From positions 1 to 56,210 of IMG/VR virus record IMGVR_UViG_3300020420_000018: a stretch of 56,210 bases of DNA. The stretch is one strand, 5' to 3'. This document shows positions 153 through 32,841 of the stretch, piece by piece. This stretch comes from a virus. Each line of letters opens with the position of its first letter. Position 1 is the stretch's first letter. The notes under the pieces are model-generated. The model was not told the DNA's origin. It did no database searches and saw only the letters and a list, made by a program, of their open reading frames with translations. A program made the position numbers and the translations under genes.

Positions 153-2583
153 AGAAGAAATTAGTGAAGCAGTAGAAACTTCTGTTGAAGCACAGGAACA
201 AGCACCAGGACCGGTTGAGATAGAAGAACAGGAAGACGGATCAGTAGAAATAGATTTTGATCCTAATGCAGCATCACCAGAAGGTGGTGACGAGCACTAC
301 GCAAACTTAGCAGAATTTTTACCAGACGAAATATTAAACGAATTAGGAAGTGACCTTACTGGTAAGTACAACGAGTATAATGCATCAAGAAAAGATTGGG
401 AACAATCATACACAAAAGGTTTAGATCTTTTAGGATTTAAATACGATATGCGAACAGAACCTTTTCAAGGTGCAAGTGGTGCAACACACCCAGTTCTTGC
501 AGAAGCAGTTACACAGTTTCAAGCTTTAGCTTACAAAGAATTATTACCAGCCAACGGACCAGTTAGAACACAAGTCGTTGGTGCACCTAATCAAGAAAAA
601 GCACAACAAGCAGAACGTGTCAAAGATTACATGAATTACGAGCTCATGGAAAGAATGCCTGACTATGAGCCCGACTTTGATTCAATGCTCTTTTATCTCC
701 CTCTCGCAGGTTCAGCGTTTAAAAAAGTTTATTACGATGAACTTGAACAAAGAGCAGTATCAAAGTTTGTACCGGCAGATGATTTGATTGTCCCTTATTC
801 GGCTACCTCATTAGACGATGCAGAGGCAGTCATTCACCGGTTAAAAGTTTCCAAAAACGATCTACGAAAACAACAGGTTGCAGGTTTCTATAGAGACATA
901 GAACTTGGTACACCAGGTTATGAAGAAAACGATGTAGAGAAAAAAGAAAGAGAACTTGAAGGACAAAGAAAATCTCAAGACGAAGATATTTATACTTTAT
1001 TAGAATGTCATGTTAATTTAGATTTAGAAGGTTTTGAAGATAAAGATCAACAAACAGGTGAGCCTTCAGGAATAAAAATTCCATACATTGTAACGATAGA
1101 ATTAGCTACACGAATGGTTTTATCTATTAGAAGAAATTATGAAATTGGAGATCAAACTAAAACTAAGATTCCTTATTTTACCCACTTTAAATTTTTACCT
1201 GGGTTAGGTTTCTATGGCTTCGGTCTCATCCATATGATTGGTGGTCTGTCTAGAACTGCAACAGCAGCTCTTCGTCAATTATTGGATGCGGGTACACTTT
1301 CCAACTTACCCGCAGGTTTTAAAATGCGTGGCATTAGAATTAGAGATGATGCGCAATCAATCCAACCAGGTGAGTTTAGAGATGTAGATGCACCGGGTGG
1401 AAATTTAAAAGACTCGTTTATGATGCTGCCTTTCAAAGAGCCATCAGCTACATTATTAAACTTGATGGGTATCGTAGTTAATGCAGGTCAAAGATTTGCA
1501 TCGATTGCTGATTTACAAGTTGGTGATGGTAACCAACAAGCTGCTGTTGGTACAACAGTTGCATTATTAGAACGAGGAAGCAGAACAATGTCTGCTATTC
1601 ACAAAAGAATTTACTCTGCTCTTAAACAAGAATTCAGATTATTAGCAAGAGTATTCAAGTTATATCTACCTCCGGAATATCCGTACGACGTAGTTGGGGG
1701 TCAAAGAATGATTAAACAACAAGACTTTGATGATCGAGTAGATATTGTGCCAGTTGCCGATCCCAACATCTTTTCACAAACTCAGCGTATTTCCCTCGCG
1801 CAAACAGAGTTGCAACTGGCAACATCAAATCCACAAATGCATAATATGTATGCTGCATATAGAAATATGTATGAAGCTTTGGGTGTAAAAGATATTGATA
1901 AGCTTCTTGTTAAACCACAACCACCAACACCACTTGATCCAAGTTTAGAAAACATCATGGCTTTAAGTGGTAAACCTTTTCAAGCTTTTCCAGGTCAAGA
2001 TCATAGAGCTCACATCACTTCGCATTTAAATTTTATGGCAACTAACATCGCAAGAAATAATCCAATGGTTACAGCTGCTATGGAAAAAAATATTTTTGAA
2101 CACATTAGTTTGATGGCTCAAGAACAAATTGAATTAGAGTTTAGAGACGAGTTACCACAATTACAGATGATGATGCAAAATCCACAGATGCAGATGCAGG
2201 CACAAGAGTTGCAACAAAGAATTGAATCTAGAAAAGCTGTGTTAATTGCAGAGATGATGACTGAATTCTTAAAAGAAGAAAGAGAAGTTACATCTGGTTT
2301 TGGTAATGATCCAATTGCACAGTTAAGAGCAAGAGAATTAGATCTTAGAGCTATGGATAATCAACGTAAAAAAGTTGAAGGCCAAGAAAAAATTAATCTT
2401 GATCGTATGAAGGCAATGATGAACCAACAAAGCACAGATGAAAAACTAGATCAAAATGAAAAATTAGCAAAACTAAGAGCTAATACATCAATCGAAAAAA
2501 CAATCTTGAGCAAATCTATACCAAATGTAGATAAAATGATGCCAAGTGTTGAAATAGAAAAATATGAAGGAGAAAATAGATGA
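88..2583 (+). CDS. Portal protein
   Basis: The 831-residue protein fits a large portal that forms the dodecameric ring at the packaging vertex and joins head to neck. The N-terminus is acidic and low-complexity (about residues 20-70). The central part resembles the portals of marine short-tailed phages, including a GASGATHPVLAEAV segment near residue 130. The C-terminal third is a Gln/Met-rich helical, coiled-coil-like region (about 690-800). GGAG lies 9 bases before the ATG. It sits just downstream of the terminase if the ends are joined, and upstream of the capsid genes. Assignment is by recognition of family style and position, not by a catalytic motif. Confidence 0.8.
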   Translation: MADKIDKSLTQGPRGSVQVPGEEEISEAVETSVEAQEQAPGPVEIEEQEDGSVEIDFDPNAASPEGGDEHYANLAEFLPDEILNELGSDLTGKYNEYNASRKDWEQSYTKGLDLLGFKYDMRTEPFQGASGATHPVLAEAVTQFQALAYKELLPANGPVRTQVVGAPNQEKAQQAERVKDYMNYELMERMPDYEPDFDSMLFYLPLAGSAFKKVYYDELEQRAVSKFVPADDLIVPYSATSLDDAEAVIHRLKVSKNDLRKQQVAGFYRDIELGTPGYEENDVEKKERELEGQRKSQDEDIYTLLECHVNLDLEGFEDKDQQTGEPSGIKIPYIVTIELATRMVLSIRRNYEIGDQTKTKIPYFTHFKFLPGLGFYGFGLIHMIGGLSRTATAALRQLLDAGTLSNLPAGFKMRGIRIRDDAQSIQPGEFRDVDAPGGNLKDSFMMLPFKEPSATLLNLMGIVVNAGQRFASIADLQVGDGNQQAAVGTTVALLERGSRTMSAIHKRIYSALKQEFRLLARVFKLYLPPEYPYDVVGGQRMIKQQDFDDRVDIVPVADPNIFSQTQRISLAQTELQLATSNPQMHNMYAAYRNMYEALGVKDIDKLLVKPQPPTPLDPSLENIMALSGKPFQAFPGQDHRAHITSHLNFMATNIARNNPMVTAAMEKNIFEHISLMAQEQIELEFRDELPQLQMMMQNPQMQMQAQELQQRIESRKAVLIAEMMTEFLKEEREVTSGFGNDPIAQLRARELDLRAMDNQRKKVEGQEKINLDRMKAMMNQQSTDEKLDQNEKLAKLRANTSIEKTILSKSIPNVDKMMPSVEIEKYEGENR

Positions 2584-2726
2584 TGAAAAAGAAAATGAAG
2601 GTAAAGAAAAAGAAAAAATCTTTTCCAGATATGTCTGGTGACGGAAAAATCACTAAAAAAGACATTTTAATTGCAAGAGGTGTAATTAAAAAACCTAAAA
2701 ATGGAATGAAGAAGAAAAGAAAATGA
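2580..2726 (+). CDS. 48-residue basic protein with EF-hand-like loop
   Basis: The ATG overlaps the portal stop codon (ATGA), so translation is probably coupled. After a lysine-rich start comes DMSGDGKITKKDILIARG, which matches the spacing of an EF-hand or dockerin-type calcium loop (D-x-S-x-D-G-x-I-x-x-x-D). The C-terminus is again Lys/Arg rich. Function unknown; it could be a minor virion or DNA-binding protein. It is the first member of the chain of tiny basic genes. Confidence 0.6.
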   Translation: MMKKKMKVKKKKKSFPDMSGDGKITKKDILIARGVIKKPKNGMKKKRK

Positions 2727-2893
2727 CAAAAGGTCAAAAAAAGGTTAAAAAGGTTATGAAAGAGTTCAAAAAAGGAACTCTTAAAATTGGTGGCTCTGAT
2801 AAAAAAGTAAAAAATCGTAAACAAGCGATTGCAATAGCTTTAAACAGAGCTGGTATAAGTAAAAATAGGAGGAACAATGGCAAAAAACGATAA
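2723..2893 (+). CDS. DUF6496-like small basic protein
   Basis: A 56-residue protein whose ATG overlaps the previous stop (ATGA). The core KVMKEFKKGTLKIGG followed by KNRKQAIAIALNRAGISK resembles the small phage and bacterial family I know as DUF6496, whose function is unknown. Strongly basic. Its last 17 bases overlap the next gene, whose ribosome binding site lies inside it. Confidence 0.65.
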   Translation: MTKGQKKVKKVMKEFKKGTLKIGGSDKKVKNRKQAIAIALNRAGISKNRRNNGKKR

Positions 2894-3071
2894 ATTTTTT
2901 GTAGAGTCTGAAGAAATAGGTATTCCATCTCAAAATATTGAGTTAGATCCTAGATCTGTAACAACTGCAGACGGTATGCCAAGAAATTACATACCAACTG
3001 GAGATGAAACAGAAGTTAGAGGAACTAAAAGAATGCTTAAGGACAAAAAGAAAACAGCTAAGTGGTACTAA
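2877..3071 (+). CDS. 64-residue phage protein of unknown function
   Basis: Starts after AGGAGGAAC, a strong ribosome binding site inside the previous gene. The sequence contains SEEIGIPSQNIELDPRSVT and ends in KDKKKTAKWY; it resembles a conserved small protein near portal genes in marine phages. No domain recognised. The stop is followed one base later by the next ATG, part of a chain of coupled genes. Confidence 0.6.
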   Translation: MAKNDKFFVESEEIGIPSQNIELDPRSVTTADGMPRNYIPTGDETEVRGTKRMLKDKKKTAKWY

Positions 3072-3072
3072 C

Positions 3073-3459
3073 ATGTGGTTGTCGGCAATTAAATTAGCCG
3101 TCTCTGCAGGAAGTAAAATTTATGCTAATAAGCAGAGAACGAAGATGGCAATGTCGGATGCACAACTAATGCATGCACAAAAGATGGCCCAAGGTGAGGA
3201 AGCTTACCAGGGTAAATTGTTAGAAGCTCGTCAATCGGATTGGAAGGACGAGGCAGTTTTGATAATTTTGTCGTTGCCTGTACTGGTGCTTGCTTGGGCA
3301 GTCATATCGGATGATCCGACTGCTATGGACAAAGTAAAATTATTCTTCGAAATGTTCTCGCAGCTGCCGGCCTGGTTTACAAATTTATGGATCCTTGTCG
3401 TGGCGAGCATTTATGGTATAAAGGGTACACAAATATTTAGAAACGGAGGTAAAAAATAA
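3073..3459 (+). CDS. Membrane protein, holin-like (3-TM GTA-type candidate)
   Basis: I chose ATG 3073 because it follows the previous stop by one base; a frame-compatible upstream ATG at 3004 would overlap that gene by 68 bases. The 128-residue product has a helical N-terminus rich in Lys, Gln and Met (about 10-50), a membrane segment AVLIILSLPVLVLAWAVI (about 57-77), and a second near residues 100-118. The layout resembles the three-TM holins associated with gene transfer agents, which would permeabilise the inner membrane. Other roles of a small virion membrane protein are possible. Confidence 0.5.
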   Translation: MWLSAIKLAVSAGSKIYANKQRTKMAMSDAQLMHAQKMAQGEEAYQGKLLEARQSDWKDEAVLIILSLPVLVLAWAVISDDPTAMDKVKLFFEMFSQLPAWFTNLWILVVASIYGIKGTQIFRNGGKK

Positions 3460-3946: not shown

Positions 3947-4080
3947 TGGCAGGTCCAGGTTTATACGCTAACATCCATGCTAAAAGAAAACGTGGTGGTA
4001 AGATGCGAAAAAAAGGTGCAAAGGGTGCACCAAAAGCATCTGACTTTAAAAGAGCAAAACAAACGGTGAGAAAAAAATAA
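3946..4080 (+). CDS. 44-residue GLYANIHAKRKR-type protein
   Basis: Begins MAGPGLYANIHAKRKRGG and continues MRKKGAKGAPKASDFKRA, a short family I recognise from many marine phages, with no known function. It shares one base with the genes on both sides (TAATG). Very basic. Likely a minor structural or DNA-associated protein, by context only. Confidence 0.6.
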   Translation: MAGPGLYANIHAKRKRGGKMRKKGAKGAPKASDFKRAKQTVRKK

Positions 4081-4346
4081 TGACTAAACTATGTCCTAGA
4101 GGAAAATCGGCAGCGAAGCGTAAATTTAAAGTTTACCCCAGTGCATACGCGAATGCATACGCCAGTAAAATTTGTGCAGGTAAAATTAAAGATCCCTCTG
4201 GTGTAAAGAGAAAAGATTTTAAAGGACGTAAACCAGCAGCTGGTGGTGGAGCTATGACTACAAGATCTTTTTATGGTAAAGGTGCTGTAGCCAAAGGCTG
4301 TGGTGCAATCATGAGTGATAAAAAGAAATTAACAAGGATGGTCTAA
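4080..4346 (+). CDS. CPRGKSAAKRKFKVYPSAYA-type basic protein
   Basis: An 88-residue protein with the conserved start CPRGKSAAKRKFKVYPSAYA and three further Cys residues (in SKICAG and KGCGA). This motif recurs in marine phage and cyanophage genomes as an uncharacterised family. It is coupled by TAATG to both neighbours. The paired Cys could bind metal but no full zinc motif is visible. Confidence 0.6.
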   Translation: MTKLCPRGKSAAKRKFKVYPSAYANAYASKICAGKIKDPSGVKRKDFKGRKPAAGGGAMTTRSFYGKGAVAKGCGAIMSDKKKLTRMV

Positions 4347-4762
4347 TGGCCAAAAACGGTCTTGATAAATGGTTCAAACAAAAATGGGTAGACATTGGTT
4401 CGAAAAAAAAGGATGGTTCATTCGCAAAATGTGGCCGTTCAAAACAGAAAGCCGATGCGAAACGAAAGTATCCAAAATGCGTCCCACTTGCAAAAGCCAC
4501 ACGGATGAGCGACTCGCAAAGGGCGAGTGCTGTCAAACGAAAGAGAGCAGTAGCTCAAGGTGTGGGCGGTAAACCAACCAACGTCAAAACATTTGTAAAG
4601 AGAACTAAGAAAGCAGATGGTGGAGATGCAATGGTTAGACAAGCACAAAAAAATTATATTGGAAGTTATGTATCTGGAGATCTAGGAGGAGTAAAAGTAG
4701 GAAATAAATCTTACGCAAAATATTATTCTAACCCTGGTTTCAGAATGCCAAAAATATCATAA
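4346..4762 (+). CDS. WVDIGSKKKDGSF-type basic protein
   Basis: A 138-residue protein beginning with WFKQKWVDIGSKKKDG, then CGRSKQK and YPKCVPLAKATRMSDSQRAS, an uncharacterised conserved marine phage domain. The C-terminal 45 residues are Tyr/Gly rich (YIGSYVSGDLGGVKVGNK) and different in character, so it may be a two-part protein. Coupled to both neighbours by one-base overlaps. Confidence 0.6.
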   Translation: MAKNGLDKWFKQKWVDIGSKKKDGSFAKCGRSKQKADAKRKYPKCVPLAKATRMSDSQRASAVKRKRAVAQGVGGKPTNVKTFVKRTKKADGGDAMVRQAQKNYIGSYVSGDLGGVKVGNKSYAKYYSNPGFRMPKIS

Positions 4763-14874: not shown

Positions 14875-15447
14875 ATGGCAAATTACGAAGCAACAAAATA
14901 CGATTTCGACGGAGCAAACCTTACAGGTATCGAAGGAATTCCTACAGCTACTATTGTACCGTGGTCTTCTTCTTCAGTGCCAACAGGTTTCTTAGAGTGT
15001 AATGGTGCAACTGTTTCAAGATCAACTTATTCAGCTTTATTTGCAATCGTAGGTACAACTTATGGAGCCGGTGATGGGGCGTCTACTTTTGGATTACCAG
15101 ATCTACAAGACAACGTAGCAATGGGTAAATCAGGAACTAAAGCTTTAGCATCAACTGGTGGAGCAAATACAGTAGCTTCAACTGGAAACATTGGTGGTTC
15201 AACAGCAAACGCAACTTTATCAACAGCTCAATTAGCATCCCACTCCCACAGTTCTGGAACGCAGAGTGGTACTCATAGAGCTCCGCAATATCCAGCCTTT
15301 CCAAATTTTGGAAATGCAGCTAGTGGTAACACTGGAAACCAAGGTTCAGGTACAGGTCACCAACATAATATGAGTGCTACTTTTAGTGGTGACTCAACAT
15401 CAGTTTTACAACCTTATTTAACGATTATTTATATTATTAAGACGTAG
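14875..15447 (+). CDS. Tail collar domain protein (receptor-binding tip candidate)
   Basis: A 190-residue protein with a Phage_Tail_Collar-type domain: IVPWSSSSVPTGFLECNG, ATVSRSTYSALFAIVGTTYGAG and GLPDLQDNVAMGKSG (about residues 25-85). The C-terminal half is Gly/Ser/Thr/His rich with HSHSSGTQSGTH and GHQHNM, which could bind metal as in T4 gp12-type fibre tips. Role: fibre end that contacts the host surface. Confidence 0.75.
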   Translation: MANYEATKYDFDGANLTGIEGIPTATIVPWSSSSVPTGFLECNGATVSRSTYSALFAIVGTTYGAGDGASTFGLPDLQDNVAMGKSGTKALASTGGANTVASTGNIGGSTANATLSTAQLASHSHSSGTQSGTHRAPQYPAFPNFGNAASGNTGNQGSGTGHQHNMSATFSGDSTSVLQPYLTIIYIIKT

Positions 15448-15455
15448 GAGAAATT

Positions 15456-15857
15456 ATGGCAACAAATTCAACATGGACAGTAGTATTAGAAGACAAAGCA
15501 GTTATTAAAAATAATGGCGCTGAGTCAGGCACTGGTTATAATATTGATGATGAGGCTTTTTGGGGTCAATCTAAATTTTCAAATATTTGGGCAATCCAAT
15601 ATGAAAATACAGTTGCAAGTGATCAAGTAGAATTTAGAGATGAAACTCCTCATTGTAGTTACGCCGATGCTAATTTAGGTGACTTTCAAGAATTTATTAC
15701 AAGATGGGATGCAGCGCACTTAGCTAAATTACAAGCTGATTGGGACGCTGATGGTCCAATTGTAACTTATGATCGAGAGGGTAATATAGTTTCTACTGAA
15801 ACTGAAGAAGAAAAAATTGCTAGATTAGGTGCAAGACCTACTTCTTACTCTTCTTAA
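15456..15857 (+). CDS. Tail-module protein of unknown function
   Basis: A 133-residue protein with AGGAG site. WTVVLEDKAVIKNNGAESG, a Trp-rich middle (FSNIWAIQYENT) and FQEFITRWDAAHLAKLQADWD; the C-terminus is acidic. This family often follows collar or fibre genes in marine phages and may be a fibre chaperone or cap. Its stop codon overlaps that of the converging gene at 15854. Confidence 0.55.
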   Translation: MATNSTWTVVLEDKAVIKNNGAESGTGYNIDDEAFWGQSKFSNIWAIQYENTVASDQVEFRDETPHCSYADANLGDFQEFITRWDAAHLAKLQADWDADGPIVTYDREGNIVSTETEEEKIARLGARPTSYSS

Positions 15858-16360
15858 TCTTTTTTCCAAATAGATAAACTTAAAATTATTCTTTCCCTTG
15901 CTGAAAAAGCATGGTGTAAATAATTCTTAGGTATGTATAATATATCGCCAGGTTCTACTTTAAAGTCTTTGTTATCTAGATGATAATAAGTAACATTTTT
16001 AACACCTATTATTAATACATGTTCTTTATCAAAGTGAGAAGGCCCTACTTCACCTTTTAAAGAATAAAAAAAATCTAAATTACCTATATCAAATAAATCT
16101 TTTAAATTAGTGTGAACATAAGTAATAAAAGGTTTAAAAATAGATAATTGATTTACGTTATATATCTGACCTACATGTTGATTTAGTTTACTTTCAAAAC
16201 CTAAAGTATTATTTTTTGACCACATTGCCAACATGGTATCAAAATTAAAATTTAATCTAAATGTTTCTAGTCGTATAGCTTTTTTTAAAAGTAAACATTT
16301 ATTTTCTTTAACAGCTTTTCTTATTTTTTTAAAAATCATTTTTATCTTAGCATCATCCAA
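15854..16360 (-). CDS. Cupin/JmjC-like oxygenase candidate
   Basis: A 168-residue protein. The C-terminal half has a cupin-type metal motif: H109-x-D111 in PSHFDKEHVLIIG, then the turn VEPGDILYIPKNYLHHAF with H149 or H150 as the third ligand. This fits Fe(II)/2-oxoglutarate hydroxylases of the JmjC/cupin type, which act on proteins or small molecules. The Lys-rich N-terminal helix region (1-35) is atypical. It is the last gene of a five-gene minus-strand operon and overlaps the preceding gene by 19 bases. Substrate unknown. Confidence 0.55.
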   Translation of the reverse strand: MDDAKIKMIFKKIRKAVKENKCLLLKKAIRLETFRLNFNFDTMLAMWSKNNTLGFESKLNQHVGQIYNVNQLSIFKPFITYVHTNLKDLFDIGNLDFFYSLKGEVGPSHFDKEHVLIIGVKNVTYYHLDNKDFKVEPGDILYIPKNYLHHAFSARERIILSLSIWKKD

Positions 16361-16935
16361 GATGTTAAAATATATTTTTTACCTGATAAAGGTGGATTAC
16401 CTCTATGTAAGTAAGGAAAACTTGCAGGCCAAATAACTATTCTACCTGTTTTAGGTTTGACTCTTTTAGAAAAATGTAAAAATTCTGTTTCTCCTCCATC
16501 TTCAACCTCATTTAAATAAATAGAAAAAACAAACGCACGTGCTTCATTATGATATCCTGCATTATGTTCTATATGCCAAACATGATATCCTTCTGTAGGT
16601 AAAGTTTTTTGAATTTTTAAATCTGTAAAATGAAAAGGAATACCAAACGCTGAGTCGGCACCTGTATTTTTTGTATAGTGATTCCAAGCTATATCAAAAT
16701 TAAGCATCATAGGTTTTAATGATTCCCACCAAACACTTATGTTATTAGGACCAGCAAAAAATTGTTGATCTTGTTTTTGAAGTATAGATACTTTTTCAGA
16801 GCCAATTCTGTTGAAAGTATTATTAAATTTATTTTGATCTTCATATAATTTAATAGCTTTATTACATTCTTCTTTGGTAATGTAATTGTCATATATACCT
16901 ATAAAATTATTTATATTAACTGTCTTTTCATTCAT
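16342..16935 (-). CDS. 2OG-Fe(II) oxygenase, prolyl-4-hydroxylase-like, HxE variant
   Basis: A 197-residue protein of the P4Hc type. Visible motifs: GYHVWHIEHNAG with H121-I-E123 as the first two iron ligands (glutamate in place of the usual aspartate), FSIYLNEVEDGGETEFL, PKTGRIVIWPASFPYLHRG with H177 as third ligand, and K187 in SGKKYILTSW as the likely 2-oxoglutarate anchor. Family members hydroxylate proteins, sugars or small molecules. Lies between a cupin-like gene and a sulfotransferase in one operon. Confidence 0.7.
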   Translation of the reverse strand: MNEKTVNINNFIGIYDNYITKEECNKAIKLYEDQNKFNNTFNRIGSEKVSILQKQDQQFFAGPNNISVWWESLKPMMLNFDIAWNHYTKNTGADSAFGIPFHFTDLKIQKTLPTEGYHVWHIEHNAGYHNEARAFVFSIYLNEVEDGGETEFLHFSKRVKPKTGRIVIWPASFPYLHRGNPPLSGKKYILTSWMMLR

Positions 16936-17511
16936 CTAAAATATCTTTCCATGCTGCCATTCCCATAAAAAAGGAGACCTTTTTATATGGTTATATACAT
17001 AATAGTCAAAATGTAAATATTTCATAATCTCTTCTTTATCTAGATATTTTTCTATATCATAGTATTTTGATGTTTTATGTTTTTCTGGAAAAGCATTTAA
17101 GTGTTTAGTTTGATTAAAATGCATTTTTAAAAACAAATTTAAATCATCGATATCTATGTAATGTTCTATCTGATAATTCATTAGATAAGGGATTTGTGAA
17201 ATACTATGATTTATTGTGCCGTTTAAAGTATTTCTTATATGGTTTTCATTAGACGTAAATACTTTCTTAATATCAATATCTTTTACATCTACTTTATTTA
17301 TTAATAAATCATATTTTAAACCTGATAGAAATCTTTCGTAAGGATCTCGTATAATACAAAATCTTGGTTTTTTAGATAAACCAAAGGTATATTCAATATT
17401 ATCTTTATAAGTATCTAATATACAATTCATAACACTTCTATTTGCGTTTTTATGAATTCTTACATATTGGAATTCTTTGGTTTCAACTAATTCTGCAAAT
17501 CTAAAATTCAT
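16936..17511 (-). CDS. Sulfotransferase-like protein
   Basis: A 191-residue protein. The start VRIHKNANRSVMNCIL (about 17-31) is a phosphosulfate-binding loop like that of carbohydrate sulfotransferases (Sulfotransfer_2 type), and FCIIRDPYERFLSGLK (51-66) is the typical second PAPS motif. It would move sulfate from PAPS to a glycan or other acceptor. The C-terminus resembles other members only loosely. It abuts an oxygenase downstream and overlaps one upstream by 4 bases. Location among tail genes suggests a virion or cell-surface target. Confidence 0.65.
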   Translation of the reverse strand: MNFRFAELVETKEFQYVRIHKNANRSVMNCILDTYKDNIEYTFGLSKKPRFCIIRDPYERFLSGLKYDLLINKVDVKDIDIKKVFTSNENHIRNTLNGTINHSISQIPYLMNYQIEHYIDIDDLNLFLKMHFNQTKHLNAFPEKHKTSKYYDIEKYLDKEEIMKYLHFDYYVYNHIKRSPFLWEWQHGKIF

Positions 17512-18065
17512 CTTTTATTTCTAACTTCTTTCGTAGATTCAACTAAATATCTTTTATCATATGCATATTTTTTAAAAGGACCGTTTTGATCTACATAATG
17601 AAAAAATACTTGAGCCATTCCTTCGCCTTTGTATATACCAGGCCTCCAATGTTTTTGACTACACCCTGCATATAGTAAACCATCTCCCTCTTCTAATTCA
17701 ATTTTTTTACCCTCTATAATCATAGGCCAATTATCATATTTTTTTACACAGACAGTTATAGATACTTCACAAGCTGCTCTATCTGTGTGTTTAGGTAATG
17801 TGCCGCCTAATATATAATAACGCCAATATGTAAAAGTAGGATAAAGTTTTAAATTAGATTCTATTTCTACTCTAGGTAATTTTTGATGTAATAGAGTTAA
17901 CATTAAAGGATCATCATACCAAGATGGGGAAAACGCGGCATTTTTAAAATCTTCTATTACATGATCTTTAAACTTATCTAATTTAATATAACAGTATTTT
18001 TGAAGAATATTTAATTCTTCTTTTGTAAAAAAATTTTTTACTACTTTATAATCTACTGTAGCCAT
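17508..18065 (-). CDS. 2OG-Fe(II) oxygenase-like protein
   Basis: A 185-residue protein. Central motif LGGTLPKHTDRAACEVSITV with H93-T-D95, then the sharp-turn strand IELEEGDGLLYAGCSQKHWRPG with H139 as the third iron ligand. The second arm of the fold (MAQVFFHYVDQNGP) follows. These features define the double-stranded beta-helix of 2-oxoglutarate oxygenases, though the Arg/Lys cosubstrate anchor is not obvious. Substrate unknown; the operon suggests a shared pathway with the sulfotransferase. Confidence 0.65.
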   Translation of the reverse strand: MATVDYKVVKNFFTKEELNILQKYCYIKLDKFKDHVIEDFKNAAFSPSWYDDPLMLTLLHQKLPRVEIESNLKLYPTFTYWRYYILGGTLPKHTDRAACEVSITVCVKKYDNWPMIIEGKKIELEEGDGLLYAGCSQKHWRPGIYKGEGMAQVFFHYVDQNGPFKKYAYDKRYLVESTKEVRNKR

Positions 18066-18565
18066 AATACTATACTATATCTAGTTCCTTTGATTATAGG
18101 TTCAATCATATAAGGATACAAAAAATTACTAGGAAAAAATACAATAGACCTTTCATCTAATTTAAATCTTTTAATTTCTTTTTCTTTTTGATCAGTAAAA
18201 ACTAAATCTCCACCTTCATAATCATTATTTAAATTTATAATAACACTAAGATTTCTAGTTATATAAGAACAATAATCTGTGTGAGTTTTGTATTCACAAC
18301 CAGGTGTGTATTTTAAAATATCTATTTGATTAATTTTATTACTAGCAATTTGAGGAAATTTAATTTTATAATGATAATATATTTTTTCTACTTCTTGTTT
18401 TATATAATTCCAATAAAAAATATCAGTGGGAGTATTAAGACTTAAGGAATATCCTCCACTTGTTAATTTTTTAAAAGCTTTTACATCTATAAGAGTCTTT
18501 ACTTTTTTACAAAAGGTAGGATCTATTATATTTTTTAATTCAACAATAGCTTCTAAATGGTCCAT
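18053..18565 (-). CDS. 2OG-Fe(II) oxygenase fold with missing distal histidine
   Basis: A 170-residue protein, first gene of the minus-strand operon. P4Hc-type motifs: YTPGCEYKTHTDYCS with H95-T-D97, SVIINLNNDYEGGDLVF, and FFPSNFLYPYMIEPIIKGTRYSIV with R162. In relatives, including the protein at 49896 (H176 in IWIHGTEP), the site of Tyr152 is a histidine ligand. Its loss may abolish or change iron chemistry. The start is 47 bases from the divergent gene at 18613. Confidence 0.65.
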   Translation of the reverse strand: MDHLEAIVELKNIIDPTFCKKVKTLIDVKAFKKLTSGGYSLSLNTPTDIFYWNYIKQEVEKIYYHYKIKFPQIASNKINQIDILKYTPGCEYKTHTDYCSYITRNLSVIINLNNDYEGGDLVFTDQKEKEIKRFKLDERSIVFFPSNFLYPYMIEPIIKGTRYSIVLWLQ

Positions 18566-18612
18566 AATATTGCTACTTTCATTCTCTATAAAACTAATAT
18601 ATAAGCTACTAT
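18566..18612. promoter_or_regulatory. Divergent intergenic segment
   Basis: A 47-base AT-rich gap between divergent starts at 18565 and 18613. It holds several TATA-like boxes (TAATAT, TATATA) but I cannot pick a convincing -35 and -10 pair. It must carry at least the minus-strand promoter unless that operon is read from further away. Confidence 0.35.
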
Positions 18613-20577
18613 ATGCTACAAAAATTAAATTTCAAGCCCGGTTTTAATAAACAAGACACTGAATCAGGGGCAGAAGGTCAATGGACAGATGGTGATTTTG
18701 TTAGATTTAGATATGGCTTACCTGAAAAAATAGGTGGTTGGTTACAATTAACAGCTGCCGGTAAATCTTTACCTGGAGCTGGTAGAGCGCAAGTTGCATT
18801 TTCTAGTTTTGCTGGTGAAAAATATGCAGCTATTGGAACATCACAAGGTTTGTTTTTATATTATGGTAATGACTTTTATGATATTAGTCCGTTAGATACA
18901 GCCATTACTGGAGGCACATTAACAACTGTTAATGGATCTAGCACTATAACTATTAATAAAGGATCACATGGATTAGCTGTTGGAAGATATGTAACCTTAT
19001 CTGCAGTAACTGTAACAGGAGCTAGTGGTTATACAGCTACCGATTTACAAAAAGTATATGAAATTTTAACTGTACCTGACATAGATAAGTTTACTGTTCA
19101 AGCAGCAACAGTTGAAACAGGATCAGGTATGAGCGCAGCTGGTGCAGTCACTGTTAATCCTTACGTAATAGTTGGACCAACAACTCAGACAACTGGTTAT
19201 GGTTGGGGTACATCCACTTGGAACGTTGAAACATGGGGCACGGAACGATCTACAAGTTCTGTGGTACTAGATCCAGGAAACTGGAGTCTTGATAACTTTG
19301 GTCAAGTATTAGTTGCAACTATATTTAACGGTGAAACTTTTACATGGAATGCAGGGGCATCAAACGCTAGAACTATTAGAGCTTCAAAATCTACAAGTAG
19401 TTTTGCAACCACCAATAATCCTACAGCTAGCAGATTTACTTTAGTATCAGATAGAGATAGACACTTATTTCATTTTGGAACTGAAACAACAATTGGAACA
19501 CCAGCCACTCAAGATCCTATGTTTGTAAGATTTTCTAATCAAGAAGATTTAAATACTTATACACCAACAGCCACAAATACTGCTGGTACATTTAGATTAG
19601 ATACAGGTAACGAAATAAGAGCCGCACTTCAAGGTAAAGATTATGTCTTTGTTATAACTGATAATGCAGCTTATGTTATTCAATTTGTTGGTCCACCATT
19701 TACATTTAGTGTTAGACAAGTTGGTACGAACTGTGGATGTATTGGACAGCATGCAGCAACTTATGTTAATGGCGCTGTATTTTGGATGGGTTCTCAAGGT
19801 GGATTCTTTGCATTTGATGGTACAGTAAAATCATTACCTTGTCTTGTAGAAGATTTTGTATTTAGCACAGATGGCAGTAATCTTGGATTAAACTTTAATG
19901 CAAGTGATGTTATATTTTCTGGCTCTAATAATTTATATACAGAAGTAAATTGGTTTTATCCAAAAGCTGGATCTTCACAAATTGATAGATGTGTAACTTA
20001 TAATTATGCTGAGAACTGTTGGACAACGTCATCACTAGATAGAACAACGTATGCAGATCAGGGTGTATTTGATAATCCTTATGCAACCGATTATGATGAT
20101 AGCGCAACACCAGTTTTCCCTAGCATTCTTGGTATTACTAATAAATATGGATCTAGTATTTACTATGAACATGAGGTCGGCACTGATCAAGTTAATAGCG
20201 TTGCAACTACAGCTATTCCTGCGTTTATAAGATCTGGAGATTGGGATATTACCTCTAGACGTAGTGCTCTTGGTCAACAAACAGGTGTTGCAGATTACAG
20301 AGGAGATGGTGAATTCTTTATGGCGGTTAGACGTTTTATACCTGATTTTAAATATCAAACAGGAGATGCGCAGATTACTTTGTTTGTAAGTTCTTATCCA
20401 GACGACGTAGCTGTTAGTTCTCCACTTGGACCCTTTACAGTTACCGCAGCAACTGATAAGATAGATACCCGAGCTCGAGGTAGATTACTGTCTGTTAAAA
20501 TAGAAAACGATGGCACAGGTGAAACCTGGAGATATGGAACACTAAGATTAGACGCACAACCGGATGGTAGAAGATAA
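18613..20577 (+). CDS. Large tail hub/stabilisation protein (P22 gp10-like candidate)
   Basis: A 654-residue protein. It opens MLQKLNFKPGFNKQDTES and GQWTDGDFVRFRYGLPEKIGG, a start typical of a large tail protein in marine podoviruses that is compared with the P22 gp10 DNA-stabilisation protein and T7 gp12 nozzle. The rest is beta-rich with repeats of sheet-like segments, VNGAVFWMGSQGGFFAF and WGTSTWNVETWGTE. It likely forms the tail nozzle or hub. No Shine-Dalgarno is obvious upstream. Confidence 0.6.
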   Translation: MLQKLNFKPGFNKQDTESGAEGQWTDGDFVRFRYGLPEKIGGWLQLTAAGKSLPGAGRAQVAFSSFAGEKYAAIGTSQGLFLYYGNDFYDISPLDTAITGGTLTTVNGSSTITINKGSHGLAVGRYVTLSAVTVTGASGYTATDLQKVYEILTVPDIDKFTVQAATVETGSGMSAAGAVTVNPYVIVGPTTQTTGYGWGTSTWNVETWGTERSTSSVVLDPGNWSLDNFGQVLVATIFNGETFTWNAGASNARTIRASKSTSSFATTNNPTASRFTLVSDRDRHLFHFGTETTIGTPATQDPMFVRFSNQEDLNTYTPTATNTAGTFRLDTGNEIRAALQGKDYVFVITDNAAYVIQFVGPPFTFSVRQVGTNCGCIGQHAATYVNGAVFWMGSQGGFFAFDGTVKSLPCLVEDFVFSTDGSNLGLNFNASDVIFSGSNNLYTEVNWFYPKAGSSQIDRCVTYNYAENCWTTSSLDRTTYADQGVFDNPYATDYDDSATPVFPSILGITNKYGSSIYYEHEVGTDQVNSVATTAIPAFIRSGDWDITSRRSALGQQTGVADYRGDGEFFMAVRRFIPDFKYQTGDAQITLFVSSYPDDVAVSSPLGPFTVTAATDKIDTRARGRLLSVKIENDGTGETWRYGTLRLDAQPDGRR

Positions 20578-21669: not shown

Positions 21670-21844
21670 TATAGTAAAAATAAATTGTACAACTATAACA
21701 ACATACAGAAATACAAAGACCGGCGAAATATATAAAGAGAAGAAAGAAGGACCTGATATTGTAGAAGACGTTACCGTGCAGGTAACTAATAAAGGTTTAG
21801 AAGTTTTTCAGAAAGTATTAAATGAAACCACTAAAAAAACTTAA
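21656..21844 (+). CDS. 62-residue protein of unknown function
   Basis: Short ORF, MKMDNIVKINCTTITTYRNT, probably a small beta hairpin protein followed by VTNKGLEVFQKVLNETTKK. The ATG at 21662 is an alternative start. It overlaps the previous gene by 14 bases and the next by 23. Not recognised. Confidence 0.45.
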   Translation: MKMDNIVKINCTTITTYRNTKTGEIYKEKKEGPDIVEDVTVQVTNKGLEVFQKVLNETTKKT

Positions 21845-22337
21845 TATATTATCTATAGATTGTGATTGGATAACAAATTTAAAACAACAAGAGGAACTTT
21901 TAAGTTTCGCAATACCTATAATTTACAATCATACAAATATAAAAACTGCATATTCTCATAAAGATATTTATCCATTATTTGTTCATGGTTATGATGAATA
22001 TAATTTAATAAACATAGATCATCATCATGATTTTCATTACCATAAAGAACTTAATATTTTAAATGAGGGAAATTGGTTATTTCATTTATCAAATGTATTT
22101 AAAAACAAAATTGATTATACATGGATATCTAATCCTAATTCTACTCACATTGGTCTCGATAATTTAAAAAATTTAAAATCTTTTATTTTTGATAACAATA
22201 TTAATTATATAAAACAAAAAACATTTGATGTAATATTTGTATGTTGTAGCCCTGATTATGCTACGACACCTGAGGTTATTACTTCATATAAAATTATGGA
22301 AAGGATAGTAAATGATATTAAGAAACCAAAACCCTAA
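21822..22337 (+). CDS. UPF0489/arginase-fold-like protein
   Basis: A 171-residue protein with two metal-type motifs: ILSIDCDWI (about 9-17) and NIDHHHDFHYH (64-74, D66 to D70). This pairing resembles the UPF0489 family, which has an arginase/deacetylase-like fold, but here the protein is short. It could be a hydrolase that acts on an amide or acyl group. It is directly followed, with a 26-base overlap, by a glycosyltransferase, so a role in sugar modification is plausible. No experimental function known to me. Confidence 0.45.
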   Translation: MKPLKKLNILSIDCDWITNLKQQEELLSFAIPIIYNHTNIKTAYSHKDIYPLFVHGYDEYNLINIDHHHDFHYHKELNILNEGNWLFHLSNVFKNKIDYTWISNPNSTHIGLDNLKNLKSFIFDNNINYIKQKTFDVIFVCCSPDYATTPEVITSYKIMERIVNDIKKPKP

Positions 22338-23259
22338 AGGCGGAACAGAACTACAATTCGAGTACTTAGAAAAGTACGTCGATAAAAATTTATTAGATCA
22401 AGTGCAAATTTGCACTTCGGTTCCAGAAAAAATACCTTTACATCCAACTAAACCAAACATACTTTGGCAAAAAAATTCTTATGATCAACCTAACCTAGCA
22501 CCTTGGTTTAGTGATCCTTCTAATCATAATAAATACGATTGGTATGTTTTTAATTCACATTGGACATATGAAAAATTTAGATTTCATTTTAATATACCAA
22601 CTAATAGATCTGTAGTTATTAAAAATGGTATTGATAAAATAGAAAAAGCTAAACCTTATGTGAAAGGTAAACCTGTAAAAATAATACATCAAAATACACC
22701 TTGGCGTGGTTTATCTGTATTGTTAGGTGCAATGCAATTAGTAAAGAATCCTTTAGTTACTCTAGATGTATACTCCTCTACAGAAGTTTATGGTCAAGAC
22801 TTTTATGATAAAAACGATCATAATTATAAAGAGCTTTACGAACAAGCTAAAAAATTACCTAACGTAAATTATATTGGTTATAAACCTAATCAATATATAA
22901 AAGATAATTTAAAAAATTATCATATGTATGTTTACCCTAGTATCTTTGAAGAAACATTCTGCATATCTTTGTTGGAAGCTATGGCTGCAGGTTTATATTG
23001 CATTGTAGATGACTATGGGGCTTTGTATGAAACAGGGGCAGAGTTTCCTATGTATATTCCATACGATCAGAATCACAGAGCTCTTGCTCAAAAGTTTGGT
23101 TTTGGTATAGAACAAGCATCTTATACATTAGATCAAAAACAAATACATGATCATTTAGATTCACAGTCTAACTACGCGCATATTTATTACAATTGGAATA
23201 AGATTGCTATGCAGTGGACCACTTTTTTAAAAGGAGTCATTAATGCAAAATCCGAATAA
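22312..23259 (+). CDS. Glycosyltransferase, GT-B fold (family 4-like)
   Basis: A 315-residue protein. N-terminal RNQNPKGGTELQFEYLEKYV is the Gly-rich donor-side loop of group 1 transferases. The C-terminal domain has HMYVYPSIFEETFCISLLEAMAAG (about 204-227), the E-x7-E signature, then YCIVDDYGALYE. It probably transfers a sugar from a nucleotide donor to a protein or glycan. It overlaps genes on both sides, so it forms a cassette with the 21822 and 23243 genes inside the virion block. Confidence 0.75.
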   Translation: MILRNQNPKGGTELQFEYLEKYVDKNLLDQVQICTSVPEKIPLHPTKPNILWQKNSYDQPNLAPWFSDPSNHNKYDWYVFNSHWTYEKFRFHFNIPTNRSVVIKNGIDKIEKAKPYVKGKPVKIIHQNTPWRGLSVLLGAMQLVKNPLVTLDVYSSTEVYGQDFYDKNDHNYKELYEQAKKLPNVNYIGYKPNQYIKDNLKNYHMYVYPSIFEETFCISLLEAMAAGLYCIVDDYGALYETGAEFPMYIPYDQNHRALAQKFGFGIEQASYTLDQKQIHDHLDSQSNYAHIYYNWNKIAMQWTTFLKGVINAKSE

Positions 23260-31184: not shown

Positions 31185-31405
31185 TGCCAAACGGAGACAA
31201 ATTAAAACCCAAAACTACAAGAGAGCACTTGCTTTCTATTTATGGATATATTACTGGATTAAAAAACGATGTTAAACATATGCATGATGGTATACACGAT
31301 TTGGGCGGTAAGATAGACAAGATCTATTGGGTGTTATTGGGTACTGTTGGGGCAGTATCACTTCTGCTATTAGAAAAGGTTTTAGATAAAAACTGGTTGT
31401 TTTAA
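31184..31405 (+). CDS. Small single-TM protein, XhlA/holin-like
   Basis: A 73-residue protein: an amphipathic helix with IYGYITGLKNDVKHMHDGIHDLGGKI, then a membrane segment YWVLLGTVGAVSLLLLEKVL and a short tail. The pattern of coiled coil plus C-terminal TM resembles XhlA-type phage lysis proteins. It ends overlapping the stop of the convergent helicase gene. Lysis or membrane anchoring are both possible. Confidence 0.5.
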   Translation: MPNGDKLKPKTTREHLLSIYGYITGLKNDVKHMHDGIHDLGGKIDKIYWVLLGTVGAVSLLLLEKVLDKNWLF

Positions 31406-32841
31406 ATCCAAGATTTTAATTCTTCACCCATAACATCGTTAGCAATATTCATTTTAGTACGTAAAGCTTTTTGGATTTTTATATCTATAGTATCTTCAGC
31501 TACTAAATCAATATAAGTCATAGGTTTAGTTTGACCAATACGATCAATACGTGCTTCTGATTGTAAACGTTTTTCTAAATCATAACCATTAGAATAGTAA
31601 ATCATTGTACTAGCTGCAGTTAATGTAATTCCAAAACCACCTGTACCTGTTGTACCTACAAAGAATCTACACTCAGGATTTTCTTGAAACTTTTTAATAT
31701 TTTTTTGTCTGTCTTCTGTGGCTGTTGCACCATAATAATCAACTACAGAATTTTCTCCAAAGTGTTTTTTTATTTCTTCTATAATTCTTCTACAGTCTTC
31801 TACGTAATAAGACCAGATAACTGCTTTACCTGATATCTCCCAAAGTATATCCATTAACTCTGTTAATCTATTACACGGAAGTTGTTGAGGTTTGCCATCA
31901 TCTGTTGCATGATAGCCACAAGATATTTGATGCAATCTTAATAACTGAACCATGACAGTAGATGTGGAACAAACTTTACCTTCTAACTCTGAGATTGCAT
32001 ACTTTCTCATTTCATCATAAAGTTTTCTTTGTATGCCTGTAAGATCTATCTTACGTGTTAAGAAAGTTTTTTTAGGTAAATCTAAACAGTCGTCTTTTAA
32101 AACACGTTCACTAAATACTTTTATCTTTGCTTCTAGTTCAGGTATGTTTCTTTTGTTTGGACCGACAGGAACGCTAACAGATCTAGATCCTAAGTTCATA
32201 GTTTTCATAATACAGTAGTGAGCTCTGTACGCCCAAAAAGAATCAAAGCCTAAAAGATAATTATCTAAAAAAGCTGCTTGACTAAATAAATCTAACGGTG
32301 AATTTGTAATTGGTGAACCTGTTAATATTCTTCTATACTTAGCAAGTGGTTTTAAAGATACAATATTTCTAGTTCTATTTGCTGTAGGAGTTTTAATAGT
32401 TGTAGATTCATCGATTGCCATCATAGCTTTATGACAAGATAAAAAACGTCTAGCAAACTCTGTAGCTTTTGGATATGAAAAAGCTTCTACATTCATAACT
32501 AAAATATGAAAGTCAGTTCCGGTTGCAAACATTGTATTTAATTCTTTTATTTTTTCTATAGAAGAATTAGACGTCTCCCAAAGCACAACTTTCTTTTCAA
32601 TGTGATCTACCATGTGAGTTGGTATTTCACCGTCGTACCAGTTTTTGTAAACACCTTTAGGTGCTATTAATAATAGGCCATTTATCTCACCTTTATCGTA
32701 AAGCATAGATGCATTGTCTATTAATACCTTAGATTTACCTGTACCCATTTCCATAAAATAGGCAAAGTATTCTTTATCCCAAGAACGCTCTAATGCTTTT
32801 AATTGATGAGCATATGGCTTCGTTTTAAATTTGTAATTCAT
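31402..32841 (-). CDS. SNF2-family DNA helicase/ATPase
   Basis: A 479-residue SF2 protein. Walker A MGTGKSKVLI (about 32-41), motif II as DEST (144-147) in place of DEAH, motif III RILTGSPITNSPLDLF, and the C-terminal domain with VGTTGTGGFGITLTAASTM and RLQSEARIDRIGQTKPM (motif VI). This is the SNF2/RapA style double-stranded DNA translocase found in many phages, probably involved in replication or recombination. It is on the minus strand, alone, with its own promoter at 32865-32893. Confidence 0.8.
   Translation of the reverse strand: MNYKFKTKPYAHQLKALERSWDKEYFAYFMEMGTGKSKVLIDNASMLYDKGEINGLLLIAPKGVYKNWYDGEIPTHMVDHIEKKVVLWETSNSSIEKIKELNTMFATGTDFHILVMNVEAFSYPKATEFARRFLSCHKAMMAIDESTTIKTPTANRTRNIVSLKPLAKYRRILTGSPITNSPLDLFSQAAFLDNYLLGFDSFWAYRAHYCIMKTMNLGSRSVSVPVGPNKRNIPELEAKIKVFSERVLKDDCLDLPKKTFLTRKIDLTGIQRKLYDEMRKYAISELEGKVCSTSTVMVQLLRLHQISCGYHATDDGKPQQLPCNRLTELMDILWEISGKAVIWSYYVEDCRRIIEEIKKHFGENSVVDYYGATATEDRQKNIKKFQENPECRFFVGTTGTGGFGITLTAASTMIYYSNGYDLEKRLQSEARIDRIGQTKPMTYIDLVAEDTIDIKIQKALRTKMNIANDVMGEELKSWI

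Follow-up and report, generated by a model that had tools for sequence, protein, structure and literature searches.

The 56,210-nucleotide stretch of viral DNA analyzed here (IMG/VR record IMGVR_UViG_3300020420_000018, positions 1 to 56,210; hereafter, the window) carries an island of five minus-strand open reading frames (ORFs) at positions 15854 to 18565, inside its tail genes. We found that the five genes, here called A to E, are one version of a cassette that occupies the same site in related phages and whose content varies around one core gene, D, which encodes a homologue of 2-oxoglutarate (2OG) oxygenases. The original prediction had described a minus-strand island of five genes that splits the tail block. 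All five ORFs are indeed present in the window's ORF list with the same coordinates, between a collar-domain gene (PF07484) and a nozzle-like gene. The features of the locus are as follows.

Gene A, 18053..18565, minus strand: first cassette gene; homologue of PF13640-type 2OG-Fe(II) oxygenases (Pfam, 1.9e-13).
Gene B, 17508..18065, minus strand: PHROG 2954 protein (phrog_2954, 6e-45) with a predicted 2OG-Fe(II) oxygenase fold and HxD...H.
Gene C, 16936..17511, minus strand: small sulfotransferase-like protein with 5'-phosphosulfate-binding (5'-PSB)-like and 3'-phosphate-binding (3'-PB)-like motifs.
Gene D, 16342..16935, minus strand: putative core oxygenase, prolyl-4-hydroxylase (P4H)-like (PF13640, 1.9e-11; phrog_61, 4e-44).
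Gene E, 15854..16360, minus strand: last cassette gene, with a TTG start; cupin/JmjC-type oxygenase-like protein (JmjC_2, 2.4e-6).
Divergent spacer, 18566..18612, no strand: 47 bp between A and stab654; presumed two-way promoter.
tail133, 15456..15857, plus strand: 133-amino-acid protein and candidate partner, with its gene placed between collar gene and cassette.
Collar-domain tail protein, 14875..15447, plus strand: PF07484, 2.6e-22; proposed substrate.
stab654, 18613..20577, plus strand: 654-amino-acid structural protein of the tail nozzle/stabilization type (phrog_3287, 5e-82); other border of the cassette.

Within the island, A and B overlap by 13 bp, B and C by 4 bp, and D and E by 19 bp, C and D abut, and the 3' end of E overlaps the convergent tail133 gene by 4 bp. 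The GC content of the island is 25 to 26%, compared with 36 to 40% across most of the flanking structural region. Because the island genes show dN/dS values of 0.13 to 0.32 against their relatives and alignments show that the catalytic residues of their products are kept among those relatives, we consider the ORFs to be real genes. The plus-strand genes upstream of the island encode tp233, the collar-domain protein, and tail133; on the other side, stab654 is P22-gp10/nozzle-like, and its relatives are annotated as "stabilization protein" or "needle head" protein. The window also encodes a portal and an adaptor of the SU10 type. Its structural module and synteny place the phage among the HTVC023P/HTVC027P-type pelagiphages. 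Among isolates, Pelagibacter phage HTVC027P is the closest; it shares the cassette site and has a stab654 homologue with 80.6% identity, and relatedness to HTVC027P alone points to SAR11 as the host. The SAR11-type hosts of pelagiphages are the ocean's most common bacteria.

Separate searches with C, stab654, and tail133 recovered 118 loci of this phage group, 107 of which were not duplicates. Of the 390 cassette ORFs in the 118 loci, 389 are minus-strand genes bordered by the collar/tail133 genes on one side and by stab654 on the other; across the 107 loci the site is always occupied by a cassette. D was present in 105 of these, A in 36, B in 34, C in 21, and E in 6, frequencies that are biased by the choice of queries (when stab654 was the only query, C was present in 4 of 80 loci). 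A and B were adjacent in 29 of 29 cases, each time with the same 13-bp overlap (co-occurrence, P = 2e-18), and are the only fixed pair in the cassette. Among the 107 loci, only three contigs, near-identical to the window, share its full set A-B-C-D-E; the loci carry 45 gene orders, part of them stemming from truncated contigs. Other cassette genes encode further 2OG oxygenases (PF13640 and PF13759), carbamoyltransferases (PF16861, 3e-57), methyltransferases, a tryptophan-halogenase-like protein (flavin halogenase; PF04820, 2e-27), and an adenosine 5'-phosphosulfate (APS)-kinase-like P-loop protein. The genes are thus largely reassorted across the 107 loci, and we therefore regard the locus as a variable site with D as its core enzyme, not as a fixed pathway. 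The census excludes a fixed five-gene pathway. The proposal that one target is hydroxylated stepwise and then sulfated is accordingly left unsupported by the co-occurrence analysis that the original prediction had suggested as a check.

The sole plus-strand cassette gene, at positions 4014 to 4625 of locus L026, is a copy of D that lies directly behind the collar genes; this locus has no minus-strand copy. In L026, as in L007, L009, L011, and L059, the single collar gene is replaced by two or three in tandem.

The spacer between the cassette and stab654 is mostly 43 to 51 bp long, regardless of which cassette gene comes first. Whichever gene is first, two elements are conserved: we found CTTTCATT in 80 of the 107 upstream regions and TATATAA in 93, compared with 0.8 and 9.2 after shuffling. 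Both are present in the spacer at 18566 to 18612, and the plus strand of the whole window contains CTTTCATT a single time. Unlike most of its neighbors, stab654 lacks a Shine-Dalgarno sequence (ribosome-binding site). Scans of the sequence for sigma-70 promoters and terminators did no better than on shuffles. Positions 18566 to 18612 are likely a two-way promoter, from which the cassette would be transcribed as a single minus-strand operon.

Alignment of 40 sequences showed that the HxE motif (H121 and E123), H177, and the 2OG-binding K187 of D are invariant, and the D profile matched the bacterial P4H 5hv0 at 1.2e-8. With a facial triad, a basic 2OG ligand, and a PF13640 match above the cutoff, D belongs to the 2OG-Fe(II) oxygenase superfamily; by itself it matched 455 phage records. 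E matched PF08007 (JmjC_2) with 27.5 bits against a cutoff of 22, and H109, D111, and H149 are invariant in the 4 sequences aligned. The JmjC_2 match and the HxD...H motif identify E as a JmjC/cupin oxygenase whose activity is predicted.

Among solved structures, A resembles PKHD hydroxylases and P4H. Its HxD is conserved and H152 is near-invariant in 20 relatives, and the copy in the window has a tyrosine at the latter position (codon TAT, versus CAT in the related contigs L003, L004, and L006). The same copy misses 12 residues in an in-frame gap, and three close relatives are intact. It retains HxD and still scores above the PF13640 cutoff. Since the distal iron-binding histidine has become a tyrosine and 12 residues are missing, A is probably inactive here, barring an assembly error, so the island may hold three active oxygenases, not four. 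The original prediction of four oxygenase-like proteins and a sulfotransferase therefore holds for the classes, which Pfam matches, folds, and motifs support (the 2OG/cupin oxygenase type in the case of A, B, D, and E), with the reservation that perhaps not all four are active.

AlkB also belongs to the 2OG oxygenases, and PMC9599517 describes other DNA-hypermodification genes in the HTVC023P-type group, both of which would fit a role in nucleic acid modification or repair, AlkB-like or in DNA hypermodification. The oxidative-repair model Oxygenase-NA, however, matched A alone and weakly (E value, 0.08), the closest solved structures are protein hydroxylases, and the genes lie in the tail module. 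We consider such a role very improbable. Anti-phage defense was rejected as well, as the only PADLOC result was that A and D matched a generic CRISPR-associated 2OG model.

B had no Pfam match. Its AlphaFold2 (AF2) model (predicted local distance difference test [pLDDT] score, 85.8) gave 360 PDB matches in Foldseek at E values of <1e-3, with PKHD/prolyl hydroxylases at the top; the 50 matches listed are all oxygenase-fold entries, and the chlorovirus enzyme vCPH and P4H are among the fold matches. H93, D95, and H139 of B are invariant, including in the "ferrochelatases" of cyanophages and pelagimyoviruses. By its modeled double-stranded beta-helix fold and HxD...H, B belongs to the 2OG-Fe(II) oxygenase superfamily, with an uncertain assignment of the basic 2OG ligand. 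We found no match to the ferrochelatase family PF00762 in 21 relatives of B, in 5 other phage "ferrochelatases," or in the whole window, and the control genomes did match. The lack of a PF00762 match, the 2OG fold, and HxD...H rule out a ferrochelatase function for B. B matched 145 phage records, and most of those among the matches listed carry the label "ferrochelatase." In PHROG 3531, a B-like half precedes an A/D-like half, a layout consistent with a natural fusion. Alignments of B against A and D with hhalign were uninformative because they were shallow.

Phrog61 and phrog2954 were found to be enriched in seasonal viruses, with phrog2954 taken as a ferrochelatase (PMC11561400). Our data suggest that the database label of PHROG 2954 is wrong, as the family appears to have a 2OG-oxygenase fold and active site, and relabeling it affects iron and heme readings in published viral ecology. 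They also bear on auxiliary metabolism, in which the oxygenases would act on small molecules of the host and B would be an iron or heme enzyme. PMC9599517 and PMC11561400 read the 2OG and "ferrochelatase" genes as auxiliary metabolic genes. However, B is not a ferrochelatase, the place of the genes inside the tail module is fixed, many non-orthologous oxygenases replace one another at a single site, and their presence covaries with tail proteins (see below), so we judged this explanation improbable.

C contains a 5'-PSB-like motif (RIHKNANRS) and a 3'-PB-like motif (IRDPYERFLSG). In the alignment of its relatives, K21, S26, R55, and R60 are invariant and position 63 is serine or alanine. The 3'-phosphoadenosine-5'-phosphosulfate (PAPS) motifs expected of a sulfotransferase are thus recognizable (K21 and S26; R55 and S/A63). 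Sulfotransfer_2 matched C of the window with an E value of 0.009 alone and 16.6 bits, below the curated cutoff of 22, and matched 11 of 13 relatives of C at E values of ≤0.05 (best, 1.1e-4). Because the AF2 model is moderate (pLDDT, 75.6) and the fold match is weak (the best Foldseek matches are sulfotransferases, at an E value of 0.09 and low template modeling scores), we based the class of C on motifs and Pfam: it is sulfotransferase-like and presumably uses PAPS. We found no homologues of C in annotated phage records, and a scan of cellular genomes gave no relative that would indicate a cellular origin.

The collar protein is conserved in the alignment save for a hypervariable stretch between an SHxH and a GHxHN motif. 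Such histidine pairs bind metal in the fiber tips of T4. Cassette content correlated with the sequences of tail133 (Spearman coefficient, 0.30) and of the collar (0.28), and in partial Mantel tests these correlations persisted after conditioning on stab654 or tp233. In contrast, the correlations of tp233 and stab654 with cassette content vanished once the collar or tail133 was conditioned on. At the level of residues, an oxygenase family that we call O1 covaries with the collar residue two before the first histidine of GHxH. Threonine occupies this position in 37 of 48 phages without O1 and in 2 of 22 with it (Fisher's test, P = 1.3e-7; 295 tests). Simulations of independent evolution on the stab654 tree and on the tree of the collar body gave P values of 0.001, and the nearest discordant pairs split 13 to 1 in a hand count of the pairs listed. 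The collar also has the strongest residue associations for C and for a further cassette family, O4. For tail133, no O1 signal was found at the residue level (minimum P, 1.7e-3). A search of annotated phage records with tail133 matched HTVC027P only, and the proteins at the places of possible tail133-like partners in S-MbCM6 and Mosig look different.

Linkage would account for this covariation if the convergent site merely tolerated insertions and genes piled up there by recombination. The island is AT-rich, gene turnover is high, and one gene of the window (A) is degenerate, all of which fit such neutral hitchhiking. However, D is kept in nearly all loci, the dN/dS values are low, and nearly all accessory genes encode chemical-modification enzymes. 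Moreover, tail133 lies between the collar gene and the cassette, nearer to the latter than the collar tip, and yet has no O1 signal, which argues against simple linkage. We therefore give neutral hitchhiking a slim chance of being right.

We also inspected 10 other phages, and in 8 of them (HTVC008M, Mosig, HTVC023P, S-CAM4, S-RIM44, S-H9-2, S-MbCM6, and P-RSM4) homologues of B or D lie next to or near genes for the tail fiber, tail, or neck. In HTVC027P, gp72 to gp74 form a minus-strand cassette at the same site, and gp73, which PMC12753301 notes as an iron-requiring 2OG enzyme, is 85% identical to D; this cassette differs in having only three genes and no sulfotransferase. HTVC008M and Mosig have, between their neck and tail genes, a tight run of 2OG oxygenase genes that includes a B homologue; relative to the structural genes next to it, the run of HTVC008M is inverted, as in the window. 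They differ in their T4-like myovirus virion and in having no annotated sulfotransferase, and Mosig adds heme-oxygenase-type genes. In the T4-like cyanophages S-CAM4, S-RIM44, S-H9-2, and S-MbCM6, D or B homologues follow tail-fiber genes directly or at a short distance but on the same strand as those genes. By profile, the closest solved relatives of D are P4H (5hv0) and vCPH (5c5t), although sequence identity is low and phage D has HxE, not HxD. The original prediction that no such phage system had been described was too strong: PMC9599517 (2022) described, for this phage group, eight non-orthologous 2OG-Fe(II) genes co-located with "ferrochelatases." The accessible part of that account treats B as a heme enzyme and mentions no sulfotransferase, tail site, core/accessory structure, or collar coupling. 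We found no literature that links these genes to tail modification in a search whose coverage did not extend to subscription papers.

We propose that the cassette is a variable kit that chemically tailors the tip of the tail adhesin, a reading to which we give an even chance and in which activity, substrate, order of steps, and benefit are what we infer. D, a P4H-like 2OG oxygenase, is the core enzyme of a cassette at a fixed site, and accessory genes (the A-B pair, E, other oxygenases, C, carbamoyltransferases, methyltransferases, and the halogenase) are swapped between strains. The oxygenases would hydroxylate side chains of the adjacent tail proteins, chiefly the collar protein with its hypervariable loop between HxH motifs, and C or other transferases may cap a hydroxyl or another acceptor. 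Modification of the tip would alter which receptor variants are gripped or would protect the tip. We favor this reading because of the fixed minus-strand site, the near-constant presence of D, the covariation with the collar and tail133, and the fiber-side homologues. It is favored further because, among solved structures, protein hydroxylases come closest (P4H to D and PKHD/P4H-type enzymes to A and B) and because D directly follows the collar genes on the plus strand in L026. A fiber or surface target, as first suggested, is plausible as the substrate.

Several points weigh against tailoring of the tail tip. stab654 itself carries some O1 association, which means that clade structure is present, and the partial Mantel tests and tree simulations remove shared ancestry only in part. 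O1 is not among the genes of this window, so its link to the collar supports a general role of the cassette and not the five genes directly. The D homologue lies away from fiber genes in P-RSM1 and S-SSM4. In addition, covariation with the collar is also expected if the cassette modifies surface polymers or receptors of the infected SAR11 cell by hydroxylation, sulfation, carbamoylation, or methylation, for example, to block superinfection or the sticking of progeny to debris, as cassette and collar would then both follow the surface type of the host. Polysaccharide decoration typically involves sulfotransferase, carbamoyltransferase, and methyltransferase genes, all of which occur in cassettes; there is also a glycosyltransferase gene close by (22312 to 23259), and rapid turnover is expected of surface-directed functions. 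On the other hand, the core enzymes look like protein hydroxylases, we saw no genes for nucleotide sugars or polymer export in the cassettes, and O1 is tied to a residue in conserved register beside the HxH motif and not to the loop only. We consider tailoring of the host surface rather unlikely, although it is the strongest of the rival readings.

The sulfate donor is a further difficulty. CysD together with CysNC was found in 5 of 118 SAR11-family genomes and ATP-sulfurylase (PF01747) in 8 of 118, so most SAR11 bacteria cannot make PAPS with known genes. These counts are in line with the lack of assimilatory sulfate reduction in SAR11 described in PMC5069961. No APS kinase gene was found in the window. 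Either the phages that bear C infect the PAPS-competent minority of SAR11, or an unrecognized route to PAPS exists, or C uses another donor. In one SAR11 genome (L249, positions 1495 to 3132), we observed a run of genes for an APS-kinase-like P-loop protein, a cytidylyltransferase-like protein, and a HalD-like 2OG enzyme; it is possibly an unrecognized activation pathway. A close relative of the P-loop protein sits in the phage cassette of L005.

Elsewhere in the window, a lone minus-strand gene for an SNF2-type helicase (31402 to 32841; PF00176, 4e-19) stands at the end of the structural block. Within 21822 to 23259, a gene for a 171-amino-acid protein with a very weak arginase match adjoins the glycosyltransferase gene. 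Its product has a 96% identical counterpart only in the L003 and L006 contigs.

2OG oxygenases are very common and unexplained genes of marine phages and are usually filed under host metabolism. The cassette occupies a fixed tail site, combines a core enzyme with exchangeable partners, and covaries with the tip of the collar, and these features together lead to the testable proposal that residues of the virion tail are modified. A more specific version, possible but doubtful in our estimation, is a combinatorial code in which the enzyme set of each strain, made up of hydroxylases plus a sulfo-, carbamoyl-, or methyltransferase or a halogenase, modifies specific residues of its own collar protein around the HxH tip and specificity is set by chemistry and sequence together. 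If this were true, the receptor specificity of these phages would be set partly by post-translational chemistry.

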